Positions 1,412 through 53,421 of a stretch of DNA of 61,070 nt are shown here, piece after piece (position 1 is the first letter of the stretch; every line of letters begins with the position of its first letter). A model generated the notes under the pieces. The model made no database searches, was not told the origin of the DNA, and was given only the letters and a program-made list of their open reading frames with translations. Source of the DNA: a virus; IMG/VR virus record IMGVR_UViG_3300042465_007053, positions 1-61,070 of that record; one strand, given 5' to 3'. The position numbers and the translations under genes were made by a program.

Positions 1412-1431
1412 ACCAACACCACACACACCAC

Positions 1432-2590: not shown

Positions 2591-2623
2591 CATGGAATCC
2601 TCAAGACGCTTTGCTCGCACACC

Positions 2624-3284: not shown

Positions 3285-3303
3285 TTTTACTGGGCCAGTA
3301 AAA
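3285..3303. terminator. Inverted repeat between convergent operons, possible bidirectional terminator
   Basis: TTTTACTGG and CCAGTAAAA flank a single base and form a perfect 9-bp inverted repeat, with T- or A-rich ends suited to termination in either direction. A partial direct copy (TTTTACTGGAATCGGC) lies just upstream at 3267-3282 and a degenerate inverted copy just downstream. It sits in the about 200-base gap between the plus-strand gene ending at 3124 and the minus-strand gene ending at 3322. Nothing else is visible in that gap. Confidence 0.5.
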
Positions 3304-3321
3304 TCGGCATTCCCAGTAGAA

Positions 3322-26483: not shown

Positions 26484-26777
26484 TTATTCTGAAAAGTTGT
26501 GTGGTTCGCTCGGCTTGTGACCTAGTATTGCGCCGAACATATTGCGTGTTCGGTCAGGCCACTCACGCGCCTCCTTCAACGAGTGCCATGCGTCAAGCGC
26601 AGAATTGCGTTCTTCGGCACTTTTATTTTTGTCGTGAATCACGGCATCCAATTCGGTCATTTTGCTGATGACACACTCCCGCATAAACCAGCCAAACTCA
26701 GGACACGAAAGCAGCTTTGTCACCTTCGACATTCCCTCTACGGCGATCTTCTGGTTTGCTGATTCAGCGTCGGTCAT
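26484..26777 (-). CDS. Hypothetical protein downstream of portal, 97 aa
   Basis: Start set at ATG 26777 (MTDAESANQKIAVEG), overlapping the portal stop by 4 bases; the longer frame would lie within the portal gene. The product is helical and charged (CPEFGWFMRECVISKMTELDAVI). It may be a small head-assembly factor, but no family is recognised. Confidence 0.65.
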   Translation of the reverse strand: MTDAESANQKIAVEGMSKVTKLLSCPEFGWFMRECVISKMTELDAVIHDKNKSAEERNSALDAWHSLKEAREWPDRTRNMFGAILGHKPSEPHNFSE

Positions 26778-28984
26778 AGGTTCGGGTATGATGGGGTTGG
26801 GTTGGGATATGCAGGCTTGTCTTTCTTCGCCTCCGCTGGCGTTTCTTTCGGGGGATTCTGCAACATGAAATGCGCCATGCGTTCCTCTGGTGTCGCTGGT
26901 GTCCATCCGCTGTCCTGTTCCCATTGCGCTTGGATGCTCGGCGGGCAGTCCTTGTAGGAAATCATTTCGCGGGTCGTGCGTTTGAGTTCCGCCTGCTGTC
27001 CTGCGGCCTGTTGTTCTTGCCACTGTGCAATCTCCTCGTCGGTGACGTTCGGGCAGAGTTCGTCGGGGTCTGCGACTTCGAGTGCCTTCAGCATATTCAG
27101 GTATAGCGGACGCCCAAGTTTCGCCACCATGATTGCGGGCGTGCCTTTGATTGCGTGGAAGTCCTTGAAGAAGGCGAGTGCCTGCTGGTTGGTCGAGAGA
27201 AGTTCGCTGCTTCGTGAGCGTGTGAGGAGAAGTCGAATCTCGCGGCTGATTGTCCGCGCCTCGTCCCGATTGATCGTGAGAAGTTGCTTCCCGTCTTTCG
27301 TGAGCAGGAGTTCTGTGTCGCGCAGGTTCTCCAGCACCAGCGTCGTCACTTGCTCCATGATGCGGATGAGTGCGTGCTGCTGTTGGATCTCCGTGTTCTT
27401 GATGAGAAGATTCGCGGTGCGTTCGATGTTCAGGATGCCCGTGGCCGTGCGGCTTTGGTTCAGGTCGCTCGAACTGGCATCCTTCGCGCCGATGATGCCG
27501 AACATGAGGTTGGTCTGCTGCTGCGCTTCCTTCATCAACTCCATGCCAATCTCCGACTTCTCCTGAAGGTTCACCCTCCAGAGGGGCGGGCGGTTGTCCT
27601 TATCGTAGCCCGGCTCCACGTCATACACCTTGTTCGATCCGAACTCCACTTGTGCCCCCATGCGCCATTCCTTCACGGCATTTGGATCGCGGAAGTCTAT
27701 CGAGCTTTCCTTTCCGTCCTTCACGTTGAAACGATTGAACTGCGCGTCAATGTAGGTGCATTGGTCGAGCACCGCTTGAATGACTCCCTCGCCATACCAA
27801 CGGTTCGGCACCCGATCAATGCCGGGGATGACCTCAAAGGGACGCTTCGGCATGATGTTCGCCAGATACTCGCAGAACACCATTTTCTTGTTCGTCATGT
27901 CCATGACTACGAAGATTTCCTCCTCGATGCCGTCTCCGTCCACATCCGCACGCACGTAGCACTCGGCGAACGGGCGGTAGATGTCTATGGAGGACGGCTG
28001 GTGATAGTCCTGCTCGCCCTGTGTCGTCTTTGCCTGACGTTCGCCTGATGTTTCGTTCGTGCCGTAGTTGGTAAAGTATTCGTCGAACCCCTCGAATTGC
28101 CCGTAGATTTCCTTCGCGTGCTGTGGCGTGTCGTCGTAAAGCTGAACCACCATGTCCGCTTCGTGGATGGACGGGCACCGTAACGGGCAGAGGAAGGAAC
28201 GGTAGTCGAGTTCGCGCACTTCCACGCCCTCGTATTGAATCAACTCCTGCTGGAGCGAGTCGAAGTTCTGGTAGTCAAACTCCCCTTGTCGCATGGAAAA
28301 GAGCGGGTCTTTCTTCAGCCTGAACATTTCCTCCACGGCTGGATCAGGAAGGAAGTCGTCGTTCTCGTAGATGAGAAGTCCGTTCGGCGTATAAACGGGC
28401 TGGCCGCTCTGATCCACCATCACGGTTGCGCTGCCGAGATACGGTGTCGAGCGTCTGACATAACGGATCTTCACCACGCACTCGTTGCGGACGATTGCGC
28501 TGCGGATGCAGGAGCGGAGTTCGAGTTGAATGTCGCTCCTGTCCACCTTCTGCTGAATCAACTCCTCCACGGCCCGTGCGGTGGCGTCGTCGCCTGTGTC
28601 CGTCTTTACAGCTGCAAAGAAAGGGCGTGTGCCGAGTAGGTCGTCGGCTGCTTTGGCGTGTGTCTCGCGCACGTAGCGTTGTGCGGTGCCGAGCGTGAGG
28701 TTGGATACGTCAAAGACTCCGCCAAACTGCAATTTGCGCCAGTCAAAGTCGCTGTCGAAGATGTCCTGATACTTCTTTCTGTGTCCCATCCATGAATCGG
28801 TTTCCACTGAACCATCTTCCAGCACACCGCTTTCCTTTTGGAGTTCGCCGATGCGCGTCACGCAACGTCGCTCCAGTTCCTCCTTTTTTTCGGCGTCGAG
28901 CTTTAGGTGGGTGTTCTGGAGCGCAACGGGTGCTTGCGGCTGTGGCGTTACGTCGAAGTCTTGTCCTGTGGAAATATCGGGCAT
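26774..28984 (-). CDS. Portal protein, 736 aa
   Basis: The length and regional features fit a podoviral-type portal. An N-terminal domain (SDFDWRKLQFGGVFDVSNLT) is followed by a charged middle with the DVDGDGIEEEIFVVMD motif common in portals, then the clip/stem-like region RPFEVIPGIDRVPNRWYGEGV. Long helices (IERTANLLIKNTEIQQQHAL and after) form the wing/crown, and the tail is Gln-rich. It would form the dodecameric channel for packaging and ejection. It sits directly downstream of the giant polyvalent gene, 1 base apart. Confidence 0.85.
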   Translation of the reverse strand: MPDISTGQDFDVTPQPQAPVALQNTHLKLDAEKKEELERRCVTRIGELQKESGVLEDGSVETDSWMGHRKKYQDIFDSDFDWRKLQFGGVFDVSNLTLGTAQRYVRETHAKAADDLLGTRPFFAAVKTDTGDDATARAVEELIQQKVDRSDIQLELRSCIRSAIVRNECVVKIRYVRRSTPYLGSATVMVDQSGQPVYTPNGLLIYENDDFLPDPAVEEMFRLKKDPLFSMRQGEFDYQNFDSLQQELIQYEGVEVRELDYRSFLCPLRCPSIHEADMVVQLYDDTPQHAKEIYGQFEGFDEYFTNYGTNETSGERQAKTTQGEQDYHQPSSIDIYRPFAECYVRADVDGDGIEEEIFVVMDMTNKKMVFCEYLANIMPKRPFEVIPGIDRVPNRWYGEGVIQAVLDQCTYIDAQFNRFNVKDGKESSIDFRDPNAVKEWRMGAQVEFGSNKVYDVEPGYDKDNRPPLWRVNLQEKSEIGMELMKEAQQQTNLMFGIIGAKDASSSDLNQSRTATGILNIERTANLLIKNTEIQQQHALIRIMEQVTTLVLENLRDTELLLTKDGKQLLTINRDEARTISREIRLLLTRSRSSELLSTNQQALAFFKDFHAIKGTPAIMVAKLGRPLYLNMLKALEVADPDELCPNVTDEEIAQWQEQQAAGQQAELKRTTREMISYKDCPPSIQAQWEQDSGWTPATPEERMAHFMLQNPPKETPAEAKKDKPAYPNPTPSYPNL

Positions 28985-28985
28985 T

Positions 28986-31900
28986 TTAGTAGAAAGATGT
29001 GAACTCCCTGTTGAATTGTTTGAAAGGTTGCGGCCTCAAGACTTCACCCTTTGCCTTTGGAGCGGGGTTTCGTTTGGCCTCTTCGTATTTTTTGGGCTTG
29101 TTGTCTGTCGGCTTTGGCGCAATTCGGATCGCGGTCTGCGCTATCTCCCTGATCTTCTGGTTTAGTTTCCGTTCGGCTTCAGGGGTTTTGGCGGATGCGC
29201 GTGCGATGGTTAATACTTTGATCGCCTTTTGTGCATCTTCGAGCATGAGCCTGCGCTTTCTGTCGTTCTGCATTTCTGGCTGAGTGATCGACTCCTTTCT
29301 CCTATTCGCTTTGTCAAGTTCAGCGTAGAAGTTATTCACCGAGAGCGATGAACTTGAGTCGGTGCCGCCCCTTCTAAACATCCTGCCCAACACTGGAATG
29401 TCCGATGCGCTTGGCTGCTTCTCTGTGTTCCCTAGTCCGATCAGATGGCCGATGGTCTGCGCGTCCCGCGAGAAGTCGCCAATCACTCCGCCCGTCATAG
29501 AACGAATCGCGGCATCTACGCGGAGCGGGCTGACAGAGTTCGGGAATATATCGCCGAGCGTGTCCGCGAGCGCGGTGTCGTGCCTGCCGCGCTGCTCGCC
29601 CGCTGGTGCGTTCACCAGTGACTTCGGAACAATCGGCCTGTCGAAGAATGCCACCCTGTTCTCAAGCTGCTCCTTGAGCGTGTTGAATAACGGCGGGAGA
29701 TCCACTGGATTGAGCGTTACGAATACGTGCTTCATCACTTGCGATGCCGCCTCTGGATCTTTGCGGTAGAGCGAGTCCAGAATTGCCTCTGGCACGGCTG
29801 AGAAGAAATTACCCCACTCCTGCGGGCGCGGTATCTGGATCAACTGATCGCCCACGGGGATGTTGAAATACAGATACTTTTCCCGCCATGTCATGTCTTT
29901 ATACCAATCGTCGTCCTTGTATTTCCACCAGAGAAGCAATGCGGGAATGGTGAGCGCGGTGAGTCCGCGAAGGACTGTCTTGAGCGGGTTCTTGTGGAAT
30001 GCCCTGCCGAAACTTCTGGCACCCTGAATGGTCGCGTTGAAGAACGGGATGGCCTGATTGACAGCCTTCGCGTAGGAGCCTGCCGCCGAGAAGTCCACCG
30101 TGGATCTCTTGGCCGCGAGCATGATCGCATACATCTGCTTGGTGGTTATCGGTGCGCCTGCTTTCCAATCCCAACCTACGTCTTTCGCAATCTGCTCCAT
30201 TTCGGCAATGCGCGGGGCGGATTCGCTGACGGAGAACAGTTTTTGAAGCGTCTCGATTGCGTTGTGCGCCCTGTGAACCATGCGCCCTGAAAGACTCTTG
30301 GATTGGTGCTGCTTGTAGGGATCGATGTCCTGTCCGAGCGGCTGGCCTACTTGCAGGCCCAACCTGTCGAACATATCTATGAGCGGATGATTCTGTCCGC
30401 GAAGTCTGTTCGGGTTCCATAGTGCGCCGAAACTGCGAACCCATGATCCGAACAGTGTGAGCGCACTAGCCTTGCTGTCGGACTGCATGAGCAATGTCGG
30501 CAAGTCGCGGGCGGGGTTGGTGAAGAAGCTGAACGATGCGCGGAGTCCCGTGGTTCCAAGTCGGAACATTCTGGCAGGGAAACCGAGCAATAGGTTCAGT
30601 GCTTTTGGCAGCCTGTAAAGGTCAATGCCCTCCAGTGCGTCGAAGATGCGAGGCTCCACGAAGAACCACTTTGTCTTGAGTTCCTTCTTCCCTGTTTCGG
30701 GATTCATCACTTCTACGGAGTGGGAAATGATCGGGTCTTTCCCCTTCGGCTTCGACATCGGCGTGAAGTAGTTGAGAATGTCGTCGTCCTCCACGGTGGA
30801 GGTATCCATGCCCATCTTCTCCAACTGATCGCGAATGTCGCCCACGGTGAGCGAGTTCATTTTCAGGCCACGCGGCACTTCCTCGATTTGAAAGCCGAGT
30901 CCTTCAATCTTCCTGAGATTCATCACAGCATCCAGAATCACCCGCTTGTGAGCGAGTTCGATCCATTTCTCGGCGTTGTTCAGAATCACTGGCATTGGCT
31001 CCAGTATCTCGCGCCCTGAGCCGAAACGGGTGATGCTCTTGAGTGCCGTGCTTGCGCCTGTTTGTGCGCTTTGGATGGCGGTGCGAACTTCGCCCGGCTC
31101 AAACCAGCGGGAGAGCGGGATGTATTTCTTCCAGCGTGACGTGATGCTGTCGATCAGCGGGGCGATGCTTGGGCTTGCCTCCCGCACGTAGTTCATCAAG
31201 CCACGGTTCCAGTTCCAGTATTTGTCCGCTGCGATGTTGAAGTTCGGATCTTTGCCGAGTTCATCAACGAGGAACTGTGCCTCCGCCCGCGTGAGGCCGG
31301 GGTTCTTGTTCGCATCCCATCTTTCAAGCGCGTGGTGCGCCCAAAGGAACAGCATGAAGTCGGACTCGTTGCCCTTCACGATTGCCATGATTTCCGAGAG
31401 TCCCTGCCCTGTAATGTTTCCAGCGAAGTCGCGCATCGCCTTCTCATTCATATACGCTGCCACAAGTTTTGCCGTGCCGCGCAGTGCGCTCGCCATTGCG
31501 TATGGGTTGCTGTCAATCGGGAGTGAGTCGCCTAGCTTTCCTTCCGCCTCCGCTACCATCTGGCGTATCGGTTCGAGTTCGTCCACCCACTTCCTGATCA
31601 GTTCAGGCCGAGACATGGACTGCTTGAAACGCTTCAGCTTGTTTGCCGAGCTATTCGGATCAACCACGTCCGCCGATGCTTTATTCCTGACTCCTTGTGC
31701 GCGGTATTGTGTGAATGCTTCGCGGGCCTGCTTCACTGCGCTCTCCACTTCTGCGAACAGCGGGAGAACGGTTTCCGTAAAATACTTGTATGCGTTGGGT
31801 GCCTCTGCTTCAGCGTTGTCCGTGGTGAAGTAAAGTCTCCAGAACTCAGCGAATCCCTCGCTGGTGTAGCTGCCGATTGGCTTCGCTCCGCCGTATAAAT

Positions 31901-34900
31901 CTTCGCCGAGTTTTTTTAGTTCGCGCAATACGTTGTTTGGCACAACGCCTTTCTGTGAACCGATTCGCAGGGTTTTGTAGAGAACCTTGGCGAGAAGATG
32001 CCCTGTCTCATGCGCGGCCACGTCGAGGCTGAGTGCTGTCCGCATCCTGACCACTTCGGGATGCTCCTTGAACGTGCCGCTCTGTTTCCCTTTTACTCTG
32101 CCGACTTGGAACGGAACCGTTTTGCCTACCGCTGCGCCGATTGCTTCGAGTGATTTTTGCGCCTCGCGTGTGCCTACTGTTTGCCCTTTGTATTCGGGTG
32201 TCGGTTTGTCGCTGACTTTGATTGGCCGTCTGCCGATCATTCCTTCCTCGGTGTCCGCGCCGAAATCTGGTTCTTCAGGAATCGATCCGTCTGTGTCCTC
32301 TGGCTGCTCCTTGAGCGGGGTCTGCTTTTCTTCCTCTTTCGGAGGTTCAGGCTTTTCCTCGGCGGGAGGTTCTACTTTGTCCTCGGCGGCGGGAGCGGGA
32401 TTTTCAGGCTTGCTGCTGCCTCCCTCAGTAAAGAGTTCGCCGTTCTCGGCACTCGCGGTGTTCGTGATTTTTGAGAGGAGGGTGAAGGGACTGACTTTGG
32501 CGCGTTCATTTCCGAACATATCGCCCGTTTCTTTATCCAAGTCACGCTGATTTTGTTCTTCTTTTGCCAGCACTAAATATGCGTCTAAAACGGTGGCAAG
32601 TTCCTTGGCGGATCTCTGCGAGCGCGAGAACAACGAGAGCAAGGCTTCTCCCTCTGCACTCAGGTCGTCCTTGATCAACTCCATCTTTCTGTTGCTGAAC
32701 CATTCCTCCAGACTCTTGTATTGCTCTCCCTTCACCGCCGCTATTCCGCGCTGGAATGCCGCCAGTGCCGCCATGATTGGGCTTGCGAGTGAAAGGTCGG
32801 AGTCGAGGCCCGCGAGTCGTCCCGCCCTCGCTAGGATGGTGGAAATCGCACGCTTGCCGTTTTCGCTCTCCATGACCTGCGCGAGTTCGCCATACTTGAG
32901 TCCCGCCTTCCGCGCCATGCCAGCGAGCATCGCCGCCTGCACGCGGCGTGTGCCGTCCGCCAAGTTGAACTTGCCTTTCGAGTCCTCCTTGAGCGGGCGA
33001 AGTTTCTTCTCCATCACGCTTGCCACCATCTGCAATGATTGCGCCGTGAGATCTCCGCCCTCGGTGAACTCTACGATGTTCGGCGTTGCGGCAAGTGCTT
33101 CGTAATCGTTCAGTGCCTCCTCAACCGTGTTCTCGTTCAGGCCGATGCTTTTCGGATTGGATTGCGTGATGAAGTCGCGGCGTGTGCCGTTCTTGTAGCC
33201 TGTGACTCTGAACACCAAGACGGGTTGCTTCATTCCTGCCAGCTTGCTTTGCAGGCCCAATCGTTTCGCGGACTCTTCAATGCTTTCGCGGTATGGCTTA
33301 ATGCCTGTCGGGTTTGTGTCCCATGCTTGCGTCACACCGTCCGCCCGCCCGTTGCCTGCCAAGATTGCTTCGTCGTCAATGCTTGGTGCTCCCGTCAATG
33401 ACACGGAGTTTTCGGTGAGCATACTTGGGTCTGGCTTTTGCCGAATCATTTCAATTTGCCGCTTGGACGCTTCGTTCGTGGTTCTGTCGCGGTTCTGTGC
33501 ATCGCCGACTTCCCGCTGAATGAGTTTCTTCAGGTCGTCAGCCTCGATGAGTTCGTAGTGCCCCTGCGCTTCGACTCCGTTCGCCACGCCAGTTGCTCTC
33601 GTTGCCTTGGACTGCGGCGGGACGGATGATTCGCTTTTGAAGTCTCCTGTAATTTCGGCGTCTGCTTCCGTCACGTCACCTTGCAGCTTTTCGTTTGGAA
33701 TCTTCACCGTGAGTCCGCGTGCTGTTATCTCCCCGTGCTCGTCGGTGATTTCCGCCGAGAACCACGCGCCCGATGTTTGGGTTGGCTCCCCTTCGCTCAT
33801 GTCGAACAGCTTTTTGAGTCTGGCGATCATGGCTGTGGTTACGTCCTTCCTGCTCGCGTCGGCGGCGGGGCCAGCCTGCTTGTTCGGAGTGGCGGCGTTG
33901 AGGTTCGGCGATCTCCCTCCGCCTCCGCCGTCTGGCCCGTCATCGTCTGGATCGGTGTCTTGCGATGGATAGGATGTGAGGTCGGCCCCCGGCGCGGTGG
34001 GTTCGTTCACCGTGATCTTCAGTCTCGCAAGTGCGTCGAACACGGAGATTGCGTTGGTGATGTGGAATGTGGCCGTTGCTGGCTTTCTTGGCGATACGTT
34101 CCATGTCCGACTTCCACTGGTGTTGATTAGGTGCGTGAGGAGTGCCCTATCGTTTATGATGGATTGGGCGGCGGTGTTTGTCGCTTTTGCGGATACTGAT
34201 ATTTTCACCGTCCTGCGATATGGGTCGAAAACCATCGAGCCTTGCGCTTCTGCAAGCGCGAGCGTGGCCCTTCTGATTTCCAATGCTTGCCGCATTTCGG
34301 AGCCTGTTGTTATTTTCCTCTCCGTGAATCCTGTGAAGTTTGCTGGCAATAGAATGCCTTTCGAGATCTCCCCGTCATTTCGGGTGAACGTGATGAAGGA
34401 CATTTTGCCTTTCACCTTTCTGTCGAGCAGTGCCTTGTAGCCGCCAATCGCGTTGCCCGTTACCACGTAGCGAATCCGCTCCCTCCGCATGGTCTTGTCC
34501 CAATCAGATTGGAAGTCGTAGTTGCCGCCGAACTGCGGGCTGTTGGGTTGCCAACGGATGATGCTGGCAAGCTGAGAAAGTGGAACTTTCACCATTCCCT
34601 TGTTGCGCCCATCATTCACGCGGAAAATGAGAAGGTGATCCGCTGAACTTGTAGGGCTATCAGGACGGAGCAGGATGTCGGTGCATATCGCAAGAACTCG
34701 CTCGGCGTCCTCGCCCGCGCCGATTCCTACTTGGAATGTATTGGCGTGCCTTGGTGATGCGACGATGTTGAGTGCCGTGATGATGTTTTCGCGGGCCTTC
34801 TCGTAGGGTCTTGCGACACCCCTCTCCGCCACGACTAAGGCGTGCGCCAGATCGCGTTCGTGCTCCGTCTCCTCCTCTTTATTGAGCGCGTCGATCTCCT

Positions 34901-37900
34901 CTTTGTATTCAGCCTCGGTTTTTTCTTTTATGGTTTGACCGAGTAGCTGCTGGAGTTCGTTCGGCTTTCCATTGCGGATTTGTTTGTCGCGTTCCTCGCG
35001 CCTTCCGAGAACCGCTTTCCACTTCTTCTCGAAGCGTGCGCGTGCGGAATCCTGTGCGACTTTGATTTCGTCCGATTTCTTGTTTTCCCATTCGTCGAGA
35101 ATCTTGTCCACTTCGGTTCGCCTGTCCTGCCGCAAGTTTTCTTCGTCGCGCCTGCGCCGTTCGTTCGGGTCGAGTGGTTTGGTTCCGCTGTATTTCTCCT
35201 TCGGTTTTTCGAGCCAGCGGCGGGCGTTCTTGTTTGCCTCTTCGTATGCGTCGTCCGTGCTCATCGGCTCGCCGCCCTCTTTGACCTTCAGTTTTTCAAT
35301 GACAGCTTTTTGCCCGAAGGATACGTCAGCGTCCACTTCGTCGAAGATTGTGTTTGCCGCAACCAACTCGGCTTGAAAGTCCCTCTCGTTCGTGGCGAAT
35401 GGATCTTCCCCGTTCTCGATAAGCCCGCGCAGCCTGCCTTTGAATCGCTCGCCGAAATCGCTCCAGAATGCGTCCATCGTGTCGGGCGACACGGTGCTCA
35501 TCCATCCGCTGAAGGTTCTGACAAACCCGCCTTCCCATGTTGATTTTGCTTTGTAATACTGATTGAGTAATGCCGCCTTCATTGGCGGCAACATATTCGG
35601 CGGAAACTTTAGGGGCATTTCGGCAAGAACCTGCGGGTGCTCCAGTAGCGTCTCCAGCGCAACATCGTCGCCGATTTGGTTGAAGAAGTCTGGTAGTTCC
35701 ACGGAGCCTGTCATCGCCGTGTCCTTGTTGCTGGTAGTGGATGCGTTCAGCTTGGACAGCTTCGCCCGTAGGAATGATGCCTTTCGGGTTTCGTGCGGTA
35801 GCGTTGTCTGGATGAGTAGGTATTCTGGCCGCTGCACCATTCCAGTTCGCATGATGCGTCCGATGATCTGCTGAAACCCGTTGATCTCAGTGATAGGCGA
35901 CATGATGAACATGACGCGCTGCTTTAGATTTATAGAGTCGTCCCGCGATGAATGAAGGGAGATACCAACCGCACCCGATGCGTTAATGATCATCACGTCC
36001 AGATCCTCGTTGTTGAACTTCTTGTTCATCCGCCCTCTGTTTTTTGGCGAACTCTCGTCGTCGGGTCTGTCTATAATAACGCCCTCCTTTAACTGGTTGG
36101 TGCGACTTGTATATTCGCCGAACTCGATACTTGCCTTTTTCAGCCTGTCTGTGATGTGGTCTATCGGCGAGACGGGTAGTTTCTTGAGTTCTTCGTTGCT
36201 TCGCACAAGTCCAACAAGTTTCTCGTAGTCGGCGCGTGCGTCCGAAAGCAACTTCTTGTATTCGGGCATATCCGATACGTTCTCGCCATGCAGGTTTGGC
36301 AATGTGTCCCACAACAAAGAGGCGGCGTTGGGGCCGAGGAGGTTTTTCTTGGTTGAGCCTCCTTCCCACTTGACCGCTATCCCCTCCGCGATCTTGTTCA
36401 TATACCGCTCCAGTGCCGAGTTGTAGGTTTTATCCAGTCCCATTTCTTTCAGAGCTTCCAGCGTTGCCTCGCCCGTCTGGTTAATCGCTATGACTACCTT
36501 TTGCGGTCTTTGGCTATCCCTGTGCGTTCGGTATTCCATTTCCTCTGGCCTCGTCATTGAGGCGTAGAGCAGGTTCATGTCTCCCTCTGGAATGTCCTGC
36601 GCGTGGAACGGTTCAGTCGTGCCGTATTTTGAAAACCTTTCTTTCAACGGATCTCCTCCGCGCTTCATCGCTGCCGCCTCGATCTGGTTCATCAAGTGCA
36701 ACTGTTCTTCTGTGAGCGGGTTCTTTTTATTTCCGTTCTTCACGCGCTCGATTGCGTCGTCCGCAACGGCGTCGGCTTTCATGGAGAACAGGAGCGTTTC
36801 GATTACGTGGAAAAACGATCTTCCAAAATTATATGAACTCAGCTTTACTTTTTTACCCATCGGTTTGTCGGCGGAGTCCTTTTGCTGACACATCCCTTTT
36901 TCCTGCATCGCCGCCTCTAGTTTGCTCAGGTTTTCCTTTAGGTTGTTCTGGTATCTGGCGACTTCCTGAACCATGTCTGAGAATTGGTTTCCGATCTCCC
37001 TGTCGCGCTCCCTGTATTGCTCGGTCTGTTTAATGCCGAACGAGACACCGCGCATACTTCGCTCCCTTCTGAACATCGAGCTTTCCGCGAGCATTGAGGC
37101 CACTTCCTGTTGTAGCGGTGCCCCGCCTACGTGCATGATTTCTCCGATCTTCTTTGCCTCGATGCCGCTCCGTGAGATTGCCGTGCGATAGTAGAGCGGA
37201 ATTGAGGAGGCGCGTTTGGCGTAGGTGGCGGAGGAGTAATATACTCCGCTCATCTTATCCATGATGCCGAGCATCTTGTCCACCCGCTTGCCATCCTCTG
37301 ATTCGCTTGCCGATTCTCCTGCCGCAAAGTGCGACTCGTCCATCAGCAACATCGCCTTGGGCGCAAGTGCCCGTAAAGCCTGCGTCCTAATTGTGTCCTT
37401 CCGAATCGCCCTGTCCTCTGACGAAAGTAATGTTACTGGCGTGTTCGGGTCTGGAAACTCGTAGTGTTCTGGCGGGAGTATTTCTTGGTCTATCTGTGAA
37501 TAATTGACGAAGATTACGTTGTATCCCTTCGGAAGTTGCCCGTCCTTTGCAATTCCCCACACCTTGTTCTTCACTTGGTCGTCGGGTGTATTATACGGCA
37601 GTGTCTTGCCCTCGATTTCTGTGGAGAGCTTGACATCGTTCGCTATGATAAACGGTTCAATCCTGTCGGTATCTCCCTCAAAAAACGCGCCGATGTTGTT
37701 CGCATCGCGCAGCATATCCATGAACAGGTTCGGCTTCTCCGTCATAAAGATCGGAGTCAGGTCGTTCCTCAAGCACCACTTCATCAGTGCCGCCAAAACG
37801 CGCCCTTTTCCGATCCCTGTCTGATCCCCGTTGATGGTTGCTATGCCCCTGCGGTGGTTCCATATCGAAAGCGCAACCGCGTCCACTTGCTCGGACATGA

Positions 37901-40900
37901 GCCGTTTTCCGAGTTCCGCTCGGTCTTTGTATCCAAGTTCCTTGATCACGAACTCGTCTATGTCTCCAACCTCTTCCTTTACCTGTTCGAGAACATTCTT
38001 TTGTTTTTGGACAAGGTTTTTCGGCGTGAGTGTTTTGCCGGGATTAACGGTGGACTCTCCCCTATACAGAGATTGGAAGTCGTCGCCCTCGTCTGGCTGA
38101 ACCAGCGTCTCTACATCGAGTCCAGATTCGTGAGTTCGTCTCCCAAGATCGACTGAAATACCTCCACGCTTACCCCCCGATTCACTGCCGCCGCCAGTTT
38201 CTCCACCGCCCTCCTTGGGAGGCAACCCATCACTTCCTCCGCTATTGTCGTCTCCGTTATCTCGTCCGCCATTACCATCTTTCGGGTTTCCTCTAGTTGG
38301 TGGCTTAGGCGGTTCATCACGGTCATTCCGTGTTCCTCCAGCATTGCCGCCAGCTTTGGGTGCTTTTGTAGTTGGGTGCTCATGATCGTATAGTTTCTGT
38401 CTGAGTTCTGCGACTGTCGAAATTATGGGTGGTGCTTCCTTGTGTGGTGTCCTAATCGAAGCTGAACCAGTTTTCCTCTTTATGTAGATAATGTCAAGGG
38501 GTGGCGAGTCGGTATTCAGCAGTGCATCGCTGACTGTAACGTGGCTCGCTACACCGTAATTCCGATAGAGGATACTGGAGAAGTTTTTCCAATCTTCGCT
38601 CTGGTAGGCCGCGAGGCGTTCTTCGGGCGTGGTTCCGTCCACGGACGGCAGCACAAGAACCGCTGAACCCGCCGAGTGAAGTTGTTCGTCCAGTAGGTTG
38701 AGCGCGTTGATGAAGTTCATGTTCCGCGATTTGAACTCCACGGAGCCGATCTTAACTGTCTGCTCTGGTTCCGTGTCGGCAATCGCGGTTTCGTTGGTCG
38801 AGTAAATCAGCGACTTGTGTGTGTGCTTGATCTGATTCTCCTCCAAGGAGTTCATGGACGGCGCGGACGTTACGCCGATGCTTTCCAGTAGTTCCTTCTG
38901 CCCCAAGTCCTCTGAATATGCGTGGGTCAGTTGCTCGCGGTTGTCCCGCTCCAAGTGCGGCATCAGGTCGTCGGAAACGATGGCGCACTGTATTTTCTCT
39001 CCCGCCGCGTTTGCGAGCCTGCTCGCGTAATACGCCACTACTGGCTTCAGATTCGTCTCCCGTGATGCGTCCTGTGTGATCTCTGGCGAGTCCTTGTCCA
39101 GTTGCGATAGCCTGTCCACGATCAGTTCCGTGGGAAGTATTGGATGCTGAGATATTACCTGTGCGGCCCTGAACACTCCGCGCTGCGCCCAATACAGCAG
39201 TTCGGTTTTGTTCATGTTCAGGCCAGAACCCATCAACTGAAGTTCGGGAGTGGTGATCTTGATTCCAGCCAAAAGCCTTTCCTTGATCGCCTCTGAGTAA
39301 TCTTCGGAAGTCGTTATGATGCGGTCATACCCATTCTTCAAGAGGACACGCTCGACTCGGCCAACGTAGTTCTCGAACAGCGGGCTTTTGCGGAGTTCCT
39401 TGCCCGTGAAGATGCGTTTGATCCACGCGAGAACGCGGGTTAAAATGCTGGATATTTGCGATGTGAATATGCCTGTATGCCATGCCTCATCGAACCTTCC
39501 AAAGACACGGTTCTGAATGGCCTGCCTGAACACTTCATGTGCAAGGTTGCCCGCGCCGAGTAGATTGCCGCGCCCGCTCTGGTAGAGTTCGTCCGCAAGC
39601 TTCGCTTCGCGTGGGTGTAGGTGATGCAACTCTTTTCCAAGGTCGTTGAGTATTCTGGCGTGGTAAGCGAGAAAGAGTTCCTGCTGCTGATCCTCATCGG
39701 TTCCTGCCGAGAGTTCGATTTCGAGTTTCTTCGCCAATGATTCGCGTTGGCTTGGCGACATGGCCCTGACTTCCATGAAGATCACTTTGTTGAACATCGC
39801 GTGTATCGTTTCGTGATACATGATGTTTCTGGCGAGCGCGGTGGGGTGTGCGCTGTCCATGAGCGCGTAGAGGAGTTTCGGTGTGACTACGAAGATTTCC
39901 TTGAATCCGTTTCCTTTCACGTAGGCCAATGCCTTTGCGTTTGGATCTCCTTCAGCTACGGTGATTCCTACCCTGCTCCAGAGCGGGCCGAACTCCAGCT
40001 TCACTTGAGCAATGAGATCCTCCGCTGCCGCTACATTGGCGAGCTTGGGGCTTTCCGCTTTGCCGGGGAAGTCATTCGGGAGTGATTCGTCGTTGCTTTG
40101 CGTGGTAGGGAAATATCCCTCTGCTGTTGGCGGCAGTGGTTCGTATTTGCTGTATTCCCGTGGGGGTTTCTCCGCTTCCTTTTGGTTGGCGTATTTCCGT
40201 GCCGATTCGATCTGCTTGAAAGCATACTTGTTCCCGTCCTTCACCCATGCTGTCGATCCGTCCTCAAGGTCAGCTTCTTTTTCGGGCGCAAAGTTCCTAT
40301 CCGTGACGAGGAAGTTGTAGCCTCCGAAGCCGGGGTGCGCTTCGTCCTCCACGGCGGTAAAAACCATCCCCTCTGGCGTCGTGATTTGATGCTGCGGGAT
40401 GAGTCCCGTGTTGATGAACTTTTCCTTCCATCCCGCCTTCTCCATTTCGGGAGTGATCCAGCGGTAGGTTTTCTCCTTCGGGTTGCGAAGATCTTCAAGT
40501 ATTGTCTCAAACTCAGTTCTGGATACTTCTGGCAGGGTTTCGTCAGCCAGCCCCCAAACTATGTGGACTACCCGCCCTGTCAGGGCATCTTCTTTTCCGA
40601 ACTTCTTCAAGAACGCTAAGAATCTCGCCGTGAATCCCTCAGGGGTTCTAACACTTGGGTTCTCCTCTGCTTCGCTCAGTATTCCCTCCCCTATTCCGTT
40701 GAGTTTCGCCAGAACCTCTGGATTCTTCAGGTCTAGCGTGCCTGCTTGGGCGGCGATTATCAAATCTCCCACGTTGGTTCCGAACTTGCTTTCTGGTTTA
40801 GCGGCAGCAAGCGATAATTTTGTTGGGGCGGCGGCAAATAGATCGATGCCAGCGTTCTCCCAATCTTTTGCTCCCTCCACTTTTCTCTTTCCTCCCGCCT

Positions 40901-43900
40901 CTGGTGGTTTCGGCTTGTCCTTTTCCTCGTCCTTCGGCGGCTTTTGATCTTCGTCCTTCGGAGGATTCGGCTTGTCCTTTTCGGCGTCGGCTTTGTCTTT
41001 TTCGGCTTTTTCCTTCTCAGCTTTTTCTTTATCCGCCTTCTCCTTTTCAGCCTTCTCCTGTTCGGCCTTTTCGGAGTCCGCCTTGTCCTTCTCAGCTTTT
41101 TCCTTTTCGGCTTTCTCGGCGTCGGCTTTTTCCTGTTCGGCTTTCTCCTGTTCGGCCTTCTCCTTGTCCGCCCTCTCTTTTTCGGCGTCGGCATTGCCCT
41201 TGTCCTTGTCCAGTTCGGCTTTGTGCTCGGCGAGCCAAGTTTCCAGTTCGCCCATCAACTCCTTGGCGTTGGTAGAAAGATTTCCGACACGGCCCCTGAG
41301 CCATTCGACAAACTCCTCGATCATCTGCCAAGTGCTCTCCGTCAGCGGTGTTCTGCTGTTCGGATCACGCGCCATCTGCATAATTGCACGCCAGACTTCA
41401 AACGACTTCTCTTCGTCAGTGAGCGTGCCCCAATCGTTGCGGGCGTCTTGCAGTCCCTTCGCTATTCCAGCTTCGGTCTTGAGTAGTTTCTTTACCTTGG
41501 CCTGCCGCCTTTTGCGTTCTTCTGGAGTAGCGGTTCTGTCGTAGGCCCATGCCACGGTTTCCGCGTGGTCAATTTCTTCCTCCGTCGCTTTCTCGATAAA
41601 TGCCGCACGCTCCTCTGGCGTGAGATTTTTCGTGCTTTCGTATAACGCCTCTGCGTCAAGGTGAATGATTCCGCCAAAGTTGCGTAACCCTGACTTGCCC
41701 TTGCGGGTGCCTTTCTCGTCTGTGGCCTTGTCGGGGTGCCCTAGAACTCGCAGTCTGTCCGCGTGCTTGGTTATCACTCCCTGAACCAGATTGGCGACAT
41801 TGGCGTGCTCGGCATCCATTGGGTTCGCGGGCGGTGTAACCTCGTCGTCGGGAAGGTCGGGAAGGTCTGCGTCACGAGGGGGCGGGGCTTCCCATACGGA
41901 AAGCCTCTGCGCCATCGTGTGAACGAGACTGCGCCCTGACTGTATCGCGGCTTTGTGCGCGGTGAGCGGAGTTCTGTCCTGAGTGTTACTTACCTTCAAC
42001 TCGGAAAAGTTGTTAGATATACGCTCTGCGATGCTGGTTGGTAAAAGCTGGATTGCCCGCCTGTCGAGCGAGCGTGTGACCGTGCCCGCTGCGTCGGTTT
42101 CCTCTGTGAAGATTCCAGCCTCCTTCATGGACTCGTAGGCGAGCTTGTTCGTAATCGGTGCTCCGCTCGTCACTTGCCTGACTGTCATCGCCATTGCGGT
42201 TGAGCCAACGGCATTGTTCACGATTGCTGCCCTGCGCTCTGGCTGTTCGACTCCGCCATCTTCCAGTGTGGAGTCTATTTCGTTCGCCGCTTCCGTCATC
42301 ACACCTTGCGACACCATTTGGTTGCCGATATGCTGCGCGATAAACGTGTGCGGGCCTGCCGTGGACATGAACTCTGTCGCGTCTTGCCTGTCCTCTACGT
42401 CCATCGGGATTGTCTCGGCGATGATGCGGGAAGTCTGCTTTGCGGATTCTGGATGCTGGCCGACGAGGAAGGATGCCGTCTGCGCGTTCTTCCCCTGCAT
42501 CATAGTGCTGATAACTTCCGATGTTGGATCTGGTTCGGCCCCTGCTGGTGGCTCCACTTGCCCAATCGCGTGCTCGCGCTCCTGATACTGGTTCGCCATG
42601 TCCTTGACCGCGGCCTGATACTTCTTGTTGCGGTATGCGCCGTAGGCTGTGCCCGCCGCTGACGGGACACCGAACGCTGCGACTTCCACAAAAAACTGTT
42701 CCCATGTCGGGATTACGTGCTTCCATTCTTGGAGTCCAAGGCCCGCCTTCATCACGTCGCCCACGCGCTCCTCGAATACCTCCCCAATGATTCCATGCCA
42801 GCCTGCCCGCTGCACCATTTTTGCAAAGGTTGAAGGGGATGCTGTTGGGTTGATTCCGAACCAACGCCGCATCACTCCTGCTTTGAGTAGCTTCAGTTTG
42901 TCTGCGCCGGGGATGAACGCGAGCATCCCGCCTGTCTTTTCCGATGCAACTTCTGTGAACTGACTCTTGAATGATTTCTGGAGAGCGGAAGTGAAGTCGT
43001 CGCCAGCGTTTTCGAGCAGGTAGTTGATCTTCCCCTTGTCGTCCTCGCTGAATGATATGTTTGGGATCATTCTCTCCACGGTTTCCGCTGCGATGTTCAG
43101 GCCCGCCGCTGGTATGGTTTGCGCCAGCGATCCAGCGATTGCAGCCGCGCTGCGTGCGCCGAGTTCCACCGCTTTCATCGCGCCCGTCTTTGCAATGGTT
43201 CCTTTCACGGCGAGGCCCGCCGCTTTCTCCATTGCCCGCTCTGTGAGTTGTGCCAAGAGTTTCGCGCCCGCCTCGCTGCCGAACTTCTCCAAAGCCTTTG
43301 CGCCGAGTTTGAGCGTTGCCTTTTGTGCCGCCGTGTAGATGCCGCCTGTCGCCGCGAGTTCTCCCGCGAATGCTGGCAGCGCGGAAAGCACGGACATAAC
43401 CTTGTATCCAAAGGTCGTGTCGCGCTGGCTGTTCTCCACGAATGCTTTGACCAGCGAAAGATCGTCCGCGCTTGGATCTGAGTTTGTTTTGGCCGACTCC
43501 TCCAGCCTGTTCGCCGCGAGTTTGACCTGAACCAGATGCTTGATTTCCGATGCGCCAGAAAGGAACGGAACCAACTGTTGAGGGTTGCTTCCAATGTCGC
43601 TCATCTTGTCGCCGATGTCGAGCGGTGGCAGTTTCTTCACGGCATCCATTGCCGCCATGCCGCGCTTCGTATCCTGTTTGGATTGCTCCGCTGCCTTTGC
43701 TGTGTATTGAACGTTTTGCTCTTTGTGAAGTTTCTCGGCGTAGGCGTTTGCGCTCTCTGGCGTGTCGAATACTCCAAGGTGCTTCCCTGTCTGCTTGAAT
43801 GTTTTTACCGCCTCCTCGTTGCTCATCACCCTTCCGTCATCACTGACGGTTGGGATCAGAACTTCCTTCCCGCCTACTTCTACGCCAATCGAACGAACCG

Positions 43901-44966
43901 TGCTGATCGTTCCATCTTCGTTCTTCACGATGGGACGATTATTGAGATCGATATTGCCCTCTTTAATCAGTCCCGCCGCTGGTTGCTTTGTTTGTGTTGG
44001 CTGCGCGGGTTCCTCCGCTCCGAGTAATCCACCCATGCCCTGATCCCGTAGCAGTTCCTCGTCGCGCCTGAGTCTTTCTGCCTCGATCTGCGTCCGTCTT
44101 GCAAGTGTCGCGTCCTGTCCTTGCTGTATCGCCCTGCCGTCGTTGTAGTGCTTGGCGTATTCGCCTGCAATCGCAAGAGCGGATGCGCGTTTTTGCCCTA
44201 TCTGTTGCTGCTCGGCTTTCGCTTCGTCGGTTTCACCGCCGAGTCCGAAGAACCCTTTCTTCGTCGCGGTGCCTGACTGCATTTCGGAATCAAAGTGGGC
44301 GTTGATCTTTGCGGCTAGTTGCTCGCCGCTTGGCAGGCTACCATCTTCGCTCTCGATGCCGATGCCCATTGTGGCGAGACGTTGCGCGGCTTCCTTCTTG
44401 TTCTTCTCGATGATGTTTAGCTGCTTCTCGTCTATGTTCAGCTTTCGTCCGAGTGTGGATGAAGCCTCGCCAAGCATCTTGTCCTCTTTGGCGAACTCCA
44501 CCTTTTTCTTCACCTGTGCATCCGTGCCTACGTGCCTCCACGGTAGCCCCGGCGCAATCAGATACTTCTCGCCCGTCTTTTCGTCGAGCGTCGGCGCGAG
44601 GCCCGCGAAGGGGTCGCTTGTCTGCGGGTTTCCGAACTGGTCAAAGTCCACCTTTTGAGGGTTGCCTGTCGAGTCATACGCGATCTGGTTCTTCGGGTCG
44701 TATTTCGTGAGTGCCGCCCCGCCTTTGTCCGTGACCGCGCTTACTCCGCCCTGCGCGTCGGTGTAGGGCACAAGCCCGCGTGAGGCGAGTTCCTTGCCCT
44801 TGCGGACTTGGATGCGGGCCTGCGCTGCCGCTTCGTATTCTGTGCGCTTTGAAGTATCAGCGTAGGTTTCCCCTGCCTGAACTTGCGTGTCTTGTTCTGC
44901 GAGTGAGCGTGCGGAGTCTCCCGCTGGCCCCTCCGCTGTCAAAAGGTCGTCGTATGGTGATGCCAT
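28986..44966 (-). CDS. Giant polyvalent protein, 5326 aa
   Basis: One uninterrupted frame fills 26% of the genome. From the N-terminus I see: a common phage module around 336-420 (NIDLNNRPIVKNEDGT...VLIPTVSDDGR); hydrophobic/Ala-rich helices to about 850; an EEIDHAE motif near 1130; a Lys/Glu/Ala repeat (about 1253-1361); an HETIH zinc motif at 1718-1722; a Gly-rich linker (about 2206-2275); a Strawberry-notch/DarB-like helicase with Walker A variant GDQTGIGKGR (2380-2389), DESH (2543-2546) and motif VI QQIIGRIMRTG (3032-3042); a DdrB-type ParB region (about 3800-3900); a second HETGH at 4319-4323; and a C-terminal large-polyvalent-protein domain of LPD38 type (about 4780-5100). Such proteins are thought to be packaged and injected to act early in infection. 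Confidence 0.9.
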   Translation of the reverse strand: MASPYDDLLTAEGPAGDSARSLAEQDTQVQAGETYADTSKRTEYEAAAQARIQVRKGKELASRGLVPYTDAQGGVSAVTDKGGAALTKYDPKNQIAYDSTGNPQKVDFDQFGNPQTSDPFAGLAPTLDEKTGEKYLIAPGLPWRHVGTDAQVKKKVEFAKEDKMLGEASSTLGRKLNIDEKQLNIIEKNKKEAAQRLATMGIGIESEDGSLPSGEQLAAKINAHFDSEMQSGTATKKGFFGLGGETDEAKAEQQQIGQKRASALAIAGEYAKHYNDGRAIQQGQDATLARRTQIEAERLRRDEELLRDQGMGGLLGAEEPAQPTQTKQPAAGLIKEGNIDLNNRPIVKNEDGTISTVRSIGVEVGGKEVLIPTVSDDGRVMSNEEAVKTFKQTGKHLGVFDTPESANAYAEKLHKEQNVQYTAKAAEQSKQDTKRGMAAMDAVKKLPPLDIGDKMSDIGSNPQQLVPFLSGASEIKHLVQVKLAANRLEESAKTNSDPSADDLSLVKAFVENSQRDTTFGYKVMSVLSALPAFAGELAATGGIYTAAQKATLKLGAKALEKFGSEAGAKLLAQLTERAMEKAAGLAVKGTIAKTGAMKAVELGARSAAAIAGSLAQTIPAAGLNIAAETVERMIPNISFSEDDKGKINYLLENAGDDFTSALQKSFKSQFTEVASEKTGGMLAFIPGADKLKLLKAGVMRRWFGINPTASPSTFAKMVQRAGWHGIIGEVFEERVGDVMKAGLGLQEWKHVIPTWEQFFVEVAAFGVPSAAGTAYGAYRNKKYQAAVKDMANQYQEREHAIGQVEPPAGAEPDPTSEVISTMMQGKNAQTASFLVGQHPESAKQTSRIIAETIPMDVEDRQDATEFMSTAGPHTFIAQHIGNQMVSQGVMTEAANEIDSTLEDGGVEQPERRAAIVNNAVGSTAMAMTVRQVTSGAPITNKLAYESMKEAGIFTEETDAAGTVTRSLDRRAIQLLPTSIAERISNNFSELKVSNTQDRTPLTAHKAAIQSGRSLVHTMAQRLSVWEAPPPRDADLPDLPDDEVTPPANPMDAEHANVANLVQGVITKHADRLRVLGHPDKATDEKGTRKGKSGLRNFGGIIHLDAEALYESTKNLTPEERAAFIEKATEEEIDHAETVAWAYDRTATPEERKRRQAKVKKLLKTEAGIAKGLQDARNDWGTLTDEEKSFEVWRAIMQMARDPNSRTPLTESTWQMIEEFVEWLRGRVGNLSTNAKELMGELETWLAEHKAELDKDKGNADAEKERADKEKAEQEKAEQEKADAEKAEKEKAEKDKADSEKAEQEKAEKEKADKEKAEKEKAEKDKADAEKDKPNPPKDEDQKPPKDEEKDKPKPPEAGGKRKVEGAKDWENAGIDLFAAAPTKLSLAAAKPESKFGTNVGDLIIAAQAGTLDLKNPEVLAKLNGIGEGILSEAEENPSVRTPEGFTARFLAFLKKFGKEDALTGRVVHIVWGLADETLPEVSRTEFETILEDLRNPKEKTYRWITPEMEKAGWKEKFINTGLIPQHQITTPEGMVFTAVEDEAHPGFGGYNFLVTDRNFAPEKEADLEDGSTAWVKDGNKYAFKQIESARKYANQKEAEKPPREYSKYEPLPPTAEGYFPTTQSNDESLPNDFPGKAESPKLANVAAAEDLIAQVKLEFGPLWSRVGITVAEGDPNAKALAYVKGNGFKEIFVVTPKLLYALMDSAHPTALARNIMYHETIHAMFNKVIFMEVRAMSPSQRESLAKKLEIELSAGTDEDQQQELFLAYHARILNDLGKELHHLHPREAKLADELYQSGRGNLLGAGNLAHEVFRQAIQNRVFGRFDEAWHTGIFTSQISSILTRVLAWIKRIFTGKELRKSPLFENYVGRVERVLLKNGYDRIITTSEDYSEAIKERLLAGIKITTPELQLMGSGLNMNKTELLYWAQRGVFRAAQVISQHPILPTELIVDRLSQLDKDSPEITQDASRETNLKPVVAYYASRLANAAGEKIQCAIVSDDLMPHLERDNREQLTHAYSEDLGQKELLESIGVTSAPSMNSLEENQIKHTHKSLIYSTNETAIADTEPEQTVKIGSVEFKSRNMNFINALNLLDEQLHSAGSAVLVLPSVDGTTPEERLAAYQSEDWKNFSSILYRNYGVASHVTVSDALLNTDSPPLDIIYIKRKTGSASIRTPHKEAPPIISTVAELRQKLYDHEHPTTKAPKAGGNAGGTRNDRDEPPKPPTRGNPKDGNGGRDNGDDNSGGSDGLPPKEGGGETGGGSESGGKRGGISVDLGRRTHESGLDVETLVQPDEGDDFQSLYRGESTVNPGKTLTPKNLVQKQKNVLEQVKEEVGDIDEFVIKELGYKDRAELGKRLMSEQVDAVALSIWNHRRGIATINGDQTGIGKGRVLAALMKWCLRNDLTPIFMTEKPNLFMDMLRDANNIGAFFEGDTDRIEPFIIANDVKLSTEIEGKTLPYNTPDDQVKNKVWGIAKDGQLPKGYNVIFVNYSQIDQEILPPEHYEFPDPNTPVTLLSSEDRAIRKDTIRTQALRALAPKAMLLMDESHFAAGESASESEDGKRVDKMLGIMDKMSGVYYSSATYAKRASSIPLYYRTAISRSGIEAKKIGEIMHVGGAPLQQEVASMLAESSMFRRERSMRGVSFGIKQTEQYRERDREIGNQFSDMVQEVARYQNNLKENLSKLEAAMQEKGMCQQKDSADKPMGKKVKLSSYNFGRSFFHVIETLLFSMKADAVADDAIERVKNGNKKNPLTEEQLHLMNQIEAAAMKRGGDPLKERFSKYGTTEPFHAQDIPEGDMNLLYASMTRPEEMEYRTHRDSQRPQKVVIAINQTGEATLEALKEMGLDKTYNSALERYMNKIAEGIAVKWEGGSTKKNLLGPNAASLLWDTLPNLHGENVSDMPEYKKLLSDARADYEKLVGLVRSNEELKKLPVSPIDHITDRLKKASIEFGEYTSRTNQLKEGVIIDRPDDESSPKNRGRMNKKFNNEDLDVMIINASGAVGISLHSSRDDSINLKQRVMFIMSPITEINGFQQIIGRIMRTGMVQRPEYLLIQTTLPHETRKASFLRAKLSKLNASTTSNKDTAMTGSVELPDFFNQIGDDVALETLLEHPQVLAEMPLKFPPNMLPPMKAALLNQYYKAKSTWEGGFVRTFSGWMSTVSPDTMDAFWSDFGERFKGRLRGLIENGEDPFATNERDFQAELVAANTIFDEVDADVSFGQKAVIEKLKVKEGGEPMSTDDAYEEANKNARRWLEKPKEKYSGTKPLDPNERRRRDEENLRQDRRTEVDKILDEWENKKSDEIKVAQDSARARFEKKWKAVLGRREERDKQIRNGKPNELQQLLGQTIKEKTEAEYKEEIDALNKEEETEHERDLAHALVVAERGVARPYEKARENIITALNIVASPRHANTFQVGIGAGEDAERVLAICTDILLRPDSPTSSADHLLIFRVNDGRNKGMVKVPLSQLASIIRWQPNSPQFGGNYDFQSDWDKTMRRERIRYVVTGNAIGGYKALLDRKVKGKMSFITFTRNDGEISKGILLPANFTGFTERKITTGSEMRQALEIRRATLALAEAQGSMVFDPYRRTVKISVSAKATNTAAQSIINDRALLTHLINTSGSRTWNVSPRKPATATFHITNAISVFDALARLKITVNEPTAPGADLTSYPSQDTDPDDDGPDGGGGGRSPNLNAATPNKQAGPAADASRKDVTTAMIARLKKLFDMSEGEPTQTSGAWFSAEITDEHGEITARGLTVKIPNEKLQGDVTEADAEITGDFKSESSVPPQSKATRATGVANGVEAQGHYELIEADDLKKLIQREVGDAQNRDRTTNEASKRQIEMIRQKPDPSMLTENSVSLTGAPSIDDEAILAGNGRADGVTQAWDTNPTGIKPYRESIEESAKRLGLQSKLAGMKQPVLVFRVTGYKNGTRRDFITQSNPKSIGLNENTVEEALNDYEALAATPNIVEFTEGGDLTAQSLQMVASVMEKKLRPLKEDSKGKFNLADGTRRVQAAMLAGMARKAGLKYGELAQVMESENGKRAISTILARAGRLAGLDSDLSLASPIMAALAAFQRGIAAVKGEQYKSLEEWFSNRKMELIKDDLSAEGEALLSLFSRSQRSAKELATVLDAYLVLAKEEQNQRDLDKETGDMFGNERAKVSPFTLLSKITNTASAENGELFTEGGSSKPENPAPAAEDKVEPPAEEKPEPPKEEEKQTPLKEQPEDTDGSIPEEPDFGADTEEGMIGRRPIKVSDKPTPEYKGQTVGTREAQKSLEAIGAAVGKTVPFQVGRVKGKQSGTFKEHPEVVRMRTALSLDVAAHETGHLLAKVLYKTLRIGSQKGVVPNNVLRELKKLGEDLYGGAKPIGSYTSEGFAEFWRLYFTTDNAEAEAPNAYKYFTETVLPLFAEVESAVKQAREAFTQYRAQGVRNKASADVVDPNSSANKLKRFKQSMSRPELIRKWVDELEPIRQMVAEAEGKLGDSLPIDSNPYAMASALRGTAKLVAAYMNEKAMRDFAGNITGQGLSEIMAIVKGNESDFMLFLWAHHALERWDANKNPGLTRAEAQFLVDELGKDPNFNIAADKYWNWNRGLMNYVREASPSIAPLIDSITSRWKKYIPLSRWFEPGEVRTAIQSAQTGASTALKSITRFGSGREILEPMPVILNNAEKWIELAHKRVILDAVMNLRKIEGLGFQIEEVPRGLKMNSLTVGDIRDQLEKMGMDTSTVEDDDILNYFTPMSKPKGKDPIISHSVEVMNPETGKKELKTKWFFVEPRIFDALEGIDLYRLPKALNLLLGFPARMFRLGTTGLRASFSFFTNPARDLPTLLMQSDSKASALTLFGSWVRSFGALWNPNRLRGQNHPLIDMFDRLGLQVGQPLGQDIDPYKQHQSKSLSGRMVHRAHNAIETLQKLFSVSESAPRIAEMEQIAKDVGWDWKAGAPITTKQMYAIMLAAKRSTVDFSAAGSYAKAVNQAIPFFNATIQGARSFGRAFHKNPLKTVLRGLTALTIPALLLWWKYKDDDWYKDMTWREKYLYFNIPVGDQLIQIPRPQEWGNFFSAVPEAILDSLYRKDPEAASQVMKHVFVTLNPVDLPPLFNTLKEQLENRVAFFDRPIVPKSLVNAPAGEQRGRHDTALADTLGDIFPNSVSPLRVDAAIRSMTGGVIGDFSRDAQTIGHLIGLGNTEKQPSASDIPVLGRMFRRGGTDSSSSLSVNNFYAELDKANRRKESITQPEMQNDRKRRLMLEDAQKAIKVLTIARASAKTPEAERKLNQKIREIAQTAIRIAPKPTDNKPKKYEEAKRNPAPKAKGEVLRPQPFKQFNREFTSFY
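40885..41210. repeat. Degenerate Lys-Glu-Ala codon repeat within the giant gene
   Basis: On the minus strand the units AEKEKAEK, ADKEKAEQ and similar recur about a dozen times, then grade into a Pro/Lys/Asp linker. The product would be a charged single alpha-helix or extended coil separating N-terminal from metallopeptidase-like modules. The DNA repeat is imperfect and may vary in length between strains. Confidence 0.85.
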
Positions 44967-53405: not shown

Positions 53406-53421
53406 GCGCAAACAACAGACC

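Follow-up and report, generated by a model that had tools for sequence, protein, structure and literature searches.

The proteins DarB and DdrB of phage P1 reside inside the phage head (PMC9024508, PMC12810830), and the N-terminus of DarB was reported to send the protein to the capsid (PMC9024508). DarB-like proteins of 4,515 aa and 4,667 aa are encoded by Burkholderia phage JC1 (gp69) and by BcepIL02 (gp70), respectively, and 51 unique peptides of JC1 gp69 were detected in CsCl-purified virions (PMC9144972). T7 gp16 has a transglycosylase in its N-terminus (PMC8954989), and in the N4-like phage DEV a 3,398-aa vRNAP is an ejection protein that is functionally equivalent to gp16 (PMC10925440), which shows that an enzyme of giant size can fill that role. 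In Escherichia phage PTXU04, PTXU04_00025 was classed as a 'Fit' gene by CRISPRi-ART, was toxic or interfering on expression and was required for infection (PMC11879866); gp25 was not included among the virion gel bands, only four of which were assigned (PMC6563267). Strawberry-notch (Sno)-like ATPases were recorded 'in a few instances' among polyvalent proteins by Iyer 2017 (PMC5512222), where LPD38 and the DdrB-type ParB domain were phage-only and the zincins were regarded as likely processing enzymes.

The window analysed here is a 61,070-bp virus record (IMGVR_UViG_3300042465_007053), of which 26.2% is taken up by a single minus-strand ORF that runs from ATG to TAA with 0 internal stops. 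The 16-kb single frame and the 26% share of the map given in the initial annotation were confirmed. An identical 5,326-aa protein is encoded by contig L148 (IMGVR_UViG_3300044695_005266). The description of this gene as one of the largest frames to be expected was fair, although relatives reach 6,206 aa. The minus-strand gene order was TerL, a 611-aa ORF, the giant gene and the portal gene, with 1 nt between the giant stop codon and the portal start codon; the gene therefore does lie between packaging and portal genes, as had been noted. Neither the giant start (44966) nor the portal start (28984) was preceded by a clear Shine-Dalgarno sequence, and a DNA-level search with the giant gene among named phages gave 0 matches. 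The features of the locus are listed below.

Features of the giant gene and its neighbourhood in the window (residue numbers refer to the 5,326-aa protein).
Feature	Coordinates	Strand	Basis
Major head protein	20286..21917	-	phrog_334
Portal protein	26774..28984	-	phrog_1216, SU10_portal
Giant polyvalent protein, 5,326 aa	28986..44966	-	ORF; identical protein in L148
~830-aa C-terminal virion module, residues 4454-5281	29124..31607	-	profiles, alignments, model
LPD38, residues 5019-5192, within the C-terminal module	29391..29912	-	Pfam 8.8e-27
Zincin-like metallopeptidase, HETGH 4319 and SEGFAEF 4369	31680..32114	-	conservation, model fold
Exchangeable cargo, residues ~1016-4415, zincin included	31722..41921	-	28% aa identity to L147 allele
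ParB-holding segment absent from L147 allele, residues 3559-4235	32262..34292	-	allele alignment
DdrB-like ParB domain, residues 3797-3920	33207..33578	-	Pfam 2.5e-17; GNGR motif
Strawberry-notch-type SF2 helicase/translocase, residues 2292-3230	35277..38093	-	Walker A 2380, DESH 2543, motif VI 3032
Gly/Pro/Asn-rich linker	38157..38369	-	sequence composition
Decayed N6-adenine MTase, residues 1926-2201	38364..39191	-	profile match in the C-terminal half; no motif I or NPPF
HETIH, candidate second zincin, residue 1718	39801..39815	-	motif only
Lys/Glu/Ala-Pro low-complexity linker, residues 1258-1358	40893..41195	-	sequence composition
Constant N-terminal part, residues 1-~1015	41922..44966	-	94-99% DNA identity to L147 mostly
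N-terminal conserved helical module, residues 477-752	42711..43538	-	common to 20 giants; LPD14 overlaps 714-783
611-aa ORF directly upstream of giant, no known family	44981..46816	-	
Terminase large subunit (TerL)	46849..49140	-	phrog_2

Segment-wise Pfam profiles and structure prediction, which the initial annotation had proposed as a check, supported the helicase, the ParB domain, one zincin and LPD38. All of the motifs that it had named were found, namely GDQTGIGKGR (residue 2380), DESH, QQIIGRIMRTG (3032), HETIH and HETGH, as were low-complexity linkers at residues 1261-1360, 2201-2260 and 4181-4220. The Helicase_C_4 profile matched at 1.5e-12 (48.3 bits against a cut-off of 30.5) and AAA_34 at 5.9e-6 (25.8 bits, just under its 27-bit cut-off); with its motifs intact, the helicase is of the Strawberry-notch-like type that had been suggested. 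The DdrB-type ParB assignment also stood (PF18763, 63.6 bits against a cut-off of 27.6), with the conserved arginine motif GNGR at residue 3871, and P1 DdrB was matched by the ParB profile at 6e-32.

Three features were absent from the initial annotation: a decayed methyltransferase (MTase) partner of the helicase, a module of ~830 aa around LPD38 and the swapped middle of the gene. In relatives, an N6-MTase with an NPPF motif precedes the helicase. A profile built from 39 NPPF-bearing relatives only, with the window left out, matched the window protein across residues 2088-2201, with an i-E of 7e-7 (Z=1000) and with none of 20 shuffles matching. This stretch corresponds to the C-terminal half of the MTase, and motif I and NPPF are absent there. 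The active N6-MTase before the helicase that marks the DarB-type dyad was accordingly not found in the window allele, whereas its motifs are present in a sister allele described below. With a helicase, a ParB domain, a zincin, LPD38 and an MTase remnant, that is, several unrelated enzymatic domains on a mobile element and in a phage context, the giant is a phage-type polyvalent protein of a known kind (Iyer 2017).

The N-terminal module has invariant residues at E672, E676, G679, E729, E732 and E733; the overlapping LPD14 match (0.00056) was below cut-off. The predicted structure of residues 1-820 was of low confidence (pLDDT 53) and was left unused. No homology was detected between the N-terminal module of the giants and the N-termini of the small forms that share their C-terminus, the best hhalign E values being 0.04-0.5 with a similar aligned spot. 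The idea that a payload was inserted between two old modules is unsupported on this comparison.

Similarity searches showed that the LPD38 assignment of the C-terminus, which was confirmed (PF18857, 94.9 bits against a cut-off of 27), concerns part of a larger conserved unit. To our knowledge, LPD38 has so far been assigned no role. When the last 1,126 aa were used in tblastn, 45 phage records were matched at 21-27% identity, and a query with the module alignment identified relatives both in viral contigs (at least 514) and in bacterial genomes, where 52 were spread over many phyla. The proteins examined were 1,023-6,206 aa long and had the module at their very C-terminal end. Foldseek returned 61 viral models at E<0.001, including PTXU04 and Ralstonia phage Alix, and the viral matches included transglycosylase, RelA/SpoT and methylase fusions. 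The same module gave 0 matches at E<0.001 in the Foldseek PDB search, T7 gp16 not being among the matches, and no sequence homology to T7 gp16 (hhalign E 0.28) or N4 vRNAP was detected. Homology of the module to either protein is thus unsupported by these sequence and structure comparisons. Because the zincin and a single helix bundle took up the VIA matches listed, the module may still have a known fold.

JC1 gp69 matched the module profile over residues 3621-4500 (8e-101) and has HEAFH at residue 3465, 156 aa before the module; BcepIL02 gp70 is alike. Since this virion protein has the same C-terminal module, virion incorporation of the giant, which had been suggested from gene order, is now better supported than by gene order; the support is indirect, from a module-bearing protein in CsCl-purified virions (PMC9144972), and for the window phage a virion location is what we infer. 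In Pelagibacter phage HTVC034P, the small form (gp44, 1,229 aa) lies in the order major capsid, tail tube A and B, gp46, gp45, gp44 and tail fibre, where gp46 resembles internal virion protein B (phrog_418, 1.6e-5). This is the order of T7 genes 10-17, which puts gp44 at the place of the ejection protein gp16. In L011, from the window's own clade, an SLT transglycosylase (2e-22) stands at the start and LPD38 at the end of the protein.

Shortly before the module lies HETGH, whose HExxH residues and downstream EGxAEF glutamate were conserved in about 20 relatives. The ATLF-type zincin Pfam match was below cut-off (0.0013). In the AlphaFold model of residues 4240-5326 (pLDDT 80.4, pTM 0.74), residues 4240-4407 matched the zincin fold of lethal factor and PPEP (VIA Z 8.4 over 144 residues, with an rmsd of 5.9). 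On its conserved ligands and predicted fold, HETGH belongs to a genuine zincin. Of the two HExxH modules originally proposed, this one was confirmed and HETIH is a candidate at most: none of the aligned relatives carries the HETIH motif, the sister allele has EELFH, and a HETIH-like motif arises in that stretch by chance in ~2% of shuffles, so a conserved second zincin is unsupported.

Across unrelated payload contexts the zincin kept a nearly fixed position, where the payload meets the C-terminal module. In a 70-row set from which rows cut by contig ends were excluded, 33 of 43 cargo-bearing forms had HExxH or HExxxH no more than 430 aa upstream of the module, compared to 0 of 25 small forms. 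With a 300-aa limit the counts were 28/39 and 2/25 (Fisher 4e-7; shuffles expect 1.2%), and both small-form exceptions (L013 and L047) are truncated contigs. A test on the tree, with 7 changes and only 6 independent pairs, was uninformative; as the zincin trait is also clustered on the tree, descent may explain part of the association.

The middle of the gene was compared with that of contig L147 (IMGVR_UViG_3300012013_000446), which encodes a 4,693-aa giant. DNA identity was 85-99% over residues 1 to ~975 (94-99% in most bins), was lost past residues ~975-1049 and returned to 97-100% from residue 4416 to the end, where the codon changes in the C-terminal module add up to 47 synonymous and 7 non-synonymous ones. 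Between these ends, window residues 1296-3558 and L147 residues 1098-3412 shared 28% aa identity. The zincin was intermediate (75-78% aa and ~72% DNA identity), and the break in identity fell directly behind it, at the module border. The L147 allele has an intact MTase (MNPPFG at 1868) and the helicase, with the ParB domain absent and no HExxH at the HETIH place, whereas the window allele combines a decayed MTase with ParB. A chimeric assembly is an unlikely source of the swap, given the open 4,693-aa frame, the coherent domain order and the intermediate identity level of the zincin. With the same two ends around a different middle in a near-identical virus, the protein resembles a delivery frame that stays fixed while its payload can be exchanged.

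Similar patterns were seen in other pairs: the helicases of L102 and L105 are 100% identical and their upstream segments 22-43%, while those of L122 and L132 are 82-90% identical and the modules 30-40%. Mosaicism itself is ordinary in phages. The unusual feature is mosaicism inside one gene, along the border between payload and module. New here are the location of LPD38 within the ~830-aa module, the zincin motif shortly before that module and the payload exchange with L147; in the openly licensed literature we found no paper that placed LPD38 in a virion module or reported payload exchange between constant ends. Residues 601-825 (42492-43166), within the otherwise constant part and inside the conserved N-terminal module, form a patch of 85-90% DNA identity to L147. 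The L147 counterpart of the 611-aa ORF (44981-46816, minus strand) is far more diverged than the ends of the giant, with short DNA matches of 82-88% only.

Searching with the helicase identified another 46 loci, and more than 15 of these encode giants of 4,800-6,206 aa. In 14 loci, some of which are near-duplicates, a BS-TP4-type portal gene lies ≤116 bp (0-116) downstream of the giant. Among described proteins, Bacteroides phage BS-TP4 gp3 (5,391 aa, PQ571277) resembles the window giant in its N-terminal module, ParB, MTase, Sno helicase, C-terminal module and adjacent portal gene, with HEAVAH as its zincin motif; unlike in the window, the MTase is intact (NPPF at 2704) and ParB precedes the MTase instead of following the helicase. 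JC1 gp69 and BcepIL02 gp70 share the C-terminal module, the zincin motif ~155 aa upstream and a helicase, but have an N-terminal transglycosylase, another helicase type, an intact MTase and no ParB match. PTXU04 gp25 (2,197 aa) has the module (24% over ~800 aa) and HExxxH 190 aa upstream, but no helicase, MTase or ParB match. P1 DdrB combines a ParB domain like that of the window with a zincin motif (HELGH at 872), and P1 DarB shares the MTase-helicase idea with the window family; in P1, however, these are separate proteins without the C-terminal LPD38 module. Two helicase giants (L090 and L107), near TerL and/or a window-type portal gene, keep the order of TerL, giant and portal but lack the LPD38 module, and their frame seems to have been replaced; the payload can therefore occur outside a single kind of frame. 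Homologues of BS-TP4 gp2 (L008:327-1508), encoded directly before the giant, precede several giants and two small module genes (L064 and L069), and this family is a candidate partner ejection protein. The 4,839-aa giant of L127 appears as two ORFs (2,922 and 1,917 aa) in its close relative L129, which may be a frameshift; L129 was left out of the analysis.

We consider it likely that the giant is an injected virion protein built of a frame and a payload, the latter an exchangeable anti-restriction or DNA-entry cargo that is probably freed by its own zincin. The C-terminal module and the N-terminal ~1,000 residues would hold the protein in the particle beside the portal and carry it through the tail and the envelope with the DNA, in the role of T7 gp16 or an N4-like vRNAP. 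The likeness to gp16 lies in the gene position of the small form, the large size of a protein that would be ejected and the transglycosylase layout of L011, and that to N4 vRNAP in HExxH before the C-terminal part. As the module matches neither T7 gp16 nor the N4 and DEV vRNAPs, what speaks for the gp16 role is where the small-form gene lies and how the protein is laid out. HTVC034P gp44 occupies the gp16-type position, between gp15-like and tail-fibre genes; the window gene instead precedes the portal, between TerL and portal and not after the tail genes, which counts against the gp16-like reading. Also weighing against the frame-and-payload view are the PTXU04 gel bands without gp25 and the N-terminal module, which resembled no small form and gave a low-confidence model.

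The payload may act in the first minutes in the host, where the Sno-type translocase, the DdrB-like ParB nuclease domain and the decayed MTase could act on or protect the entering genome. The translocase and ParB would most likely do so, and restriction is somewhat more probable than not as their target; an anti-host-defence role, as initially proposed, is plausible by descent, given the P1 DdrB-type ParB and the MTase-helicase dyad. Protection in the strict DarB sense, in which helicase and methylase would modify phage DNA in cis against type I enzymes, is quite unlikely. The L147 allele and most relatives do have the dyad with NPPF, and the P1 DarB MTase region matched the family profile at 1.5e-7; however, loss of motif I and NPPF makes methylation unlikely as the window allele's own activity, and the Sno-type helicase profile gave no match to P1 DarB (E 7.6). 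An early replication protein outside virions, to which the helicase and ParB domains would be suited, is very improbable given the late gene position, the JC1 homologue in virions and the small form at the T7 gene-16 position.

For the zincin, which at the junction would be placed to cut the payload free, we regard the chances of such release as about even. Its lethal-factor/PPEP-like predicted fold would also suit an effector whose targets, once it is injected, are host proteins and not its own polypeptide, an option raised in Iyer 2017 (PMC5512222); this is doubtful, though conceivable, since the nearly fixed junction position in unrelated payload contexts argues against it. The giant may alternatively serve in the structure or assembly of the portal vertex, as a factor essential only in morphogenesis and with secondary enzyme domains. 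Its gene directly adjoins the portal gene, knockdown of PTXU04_00025 was strongly deleterious in E. coli (PMC11879866) and P1 Dar proteins have been linked to head morphogenesis (PMC12810830), but the helicase motifs and zincin ligands stay intact, and the ends are kept while the payload is exchanged between the window and L147, so we judge such a role unlikely.

On the reading of an injected frame with exchangeable payload, LPD38 is tied to a ~830-aa virion module common to small ejection-protein-like genes and giants. The natural module boundaries at residues ~1000 and 4416 offer a handle on capsid loading, delivery and zincin release, and the allele pair, a decayed MTase with ParB versus an intact MTase without it, is a natural experiment on interchangeable early activities. 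We suggest only tentatively that the giants evolve in the manner of polymorphic toxins: the N-terminal part and the LPD38 module would form a constant frame for delivery, and the payload would be exchanged together with the zincin that releases it; if true, early anti-defence programmes would be swapped among phages by recombination inside one gene.

Two further genes of the window concern DNA modification. A TET-associated glycosyltransferase (TAGT) is encoded at 7244-8110 on the minus strand (Pfam 6e-46); the phage may thus glycosylate modified bases, and a virion methylase could then be redundant. A search for a TET/JBP partner gene gave no match, and neither did the control of the same search. 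A separate N6_N4 DNA methylase gene is located at 53344-54753 on the plus strand (Pfam 5e-23).
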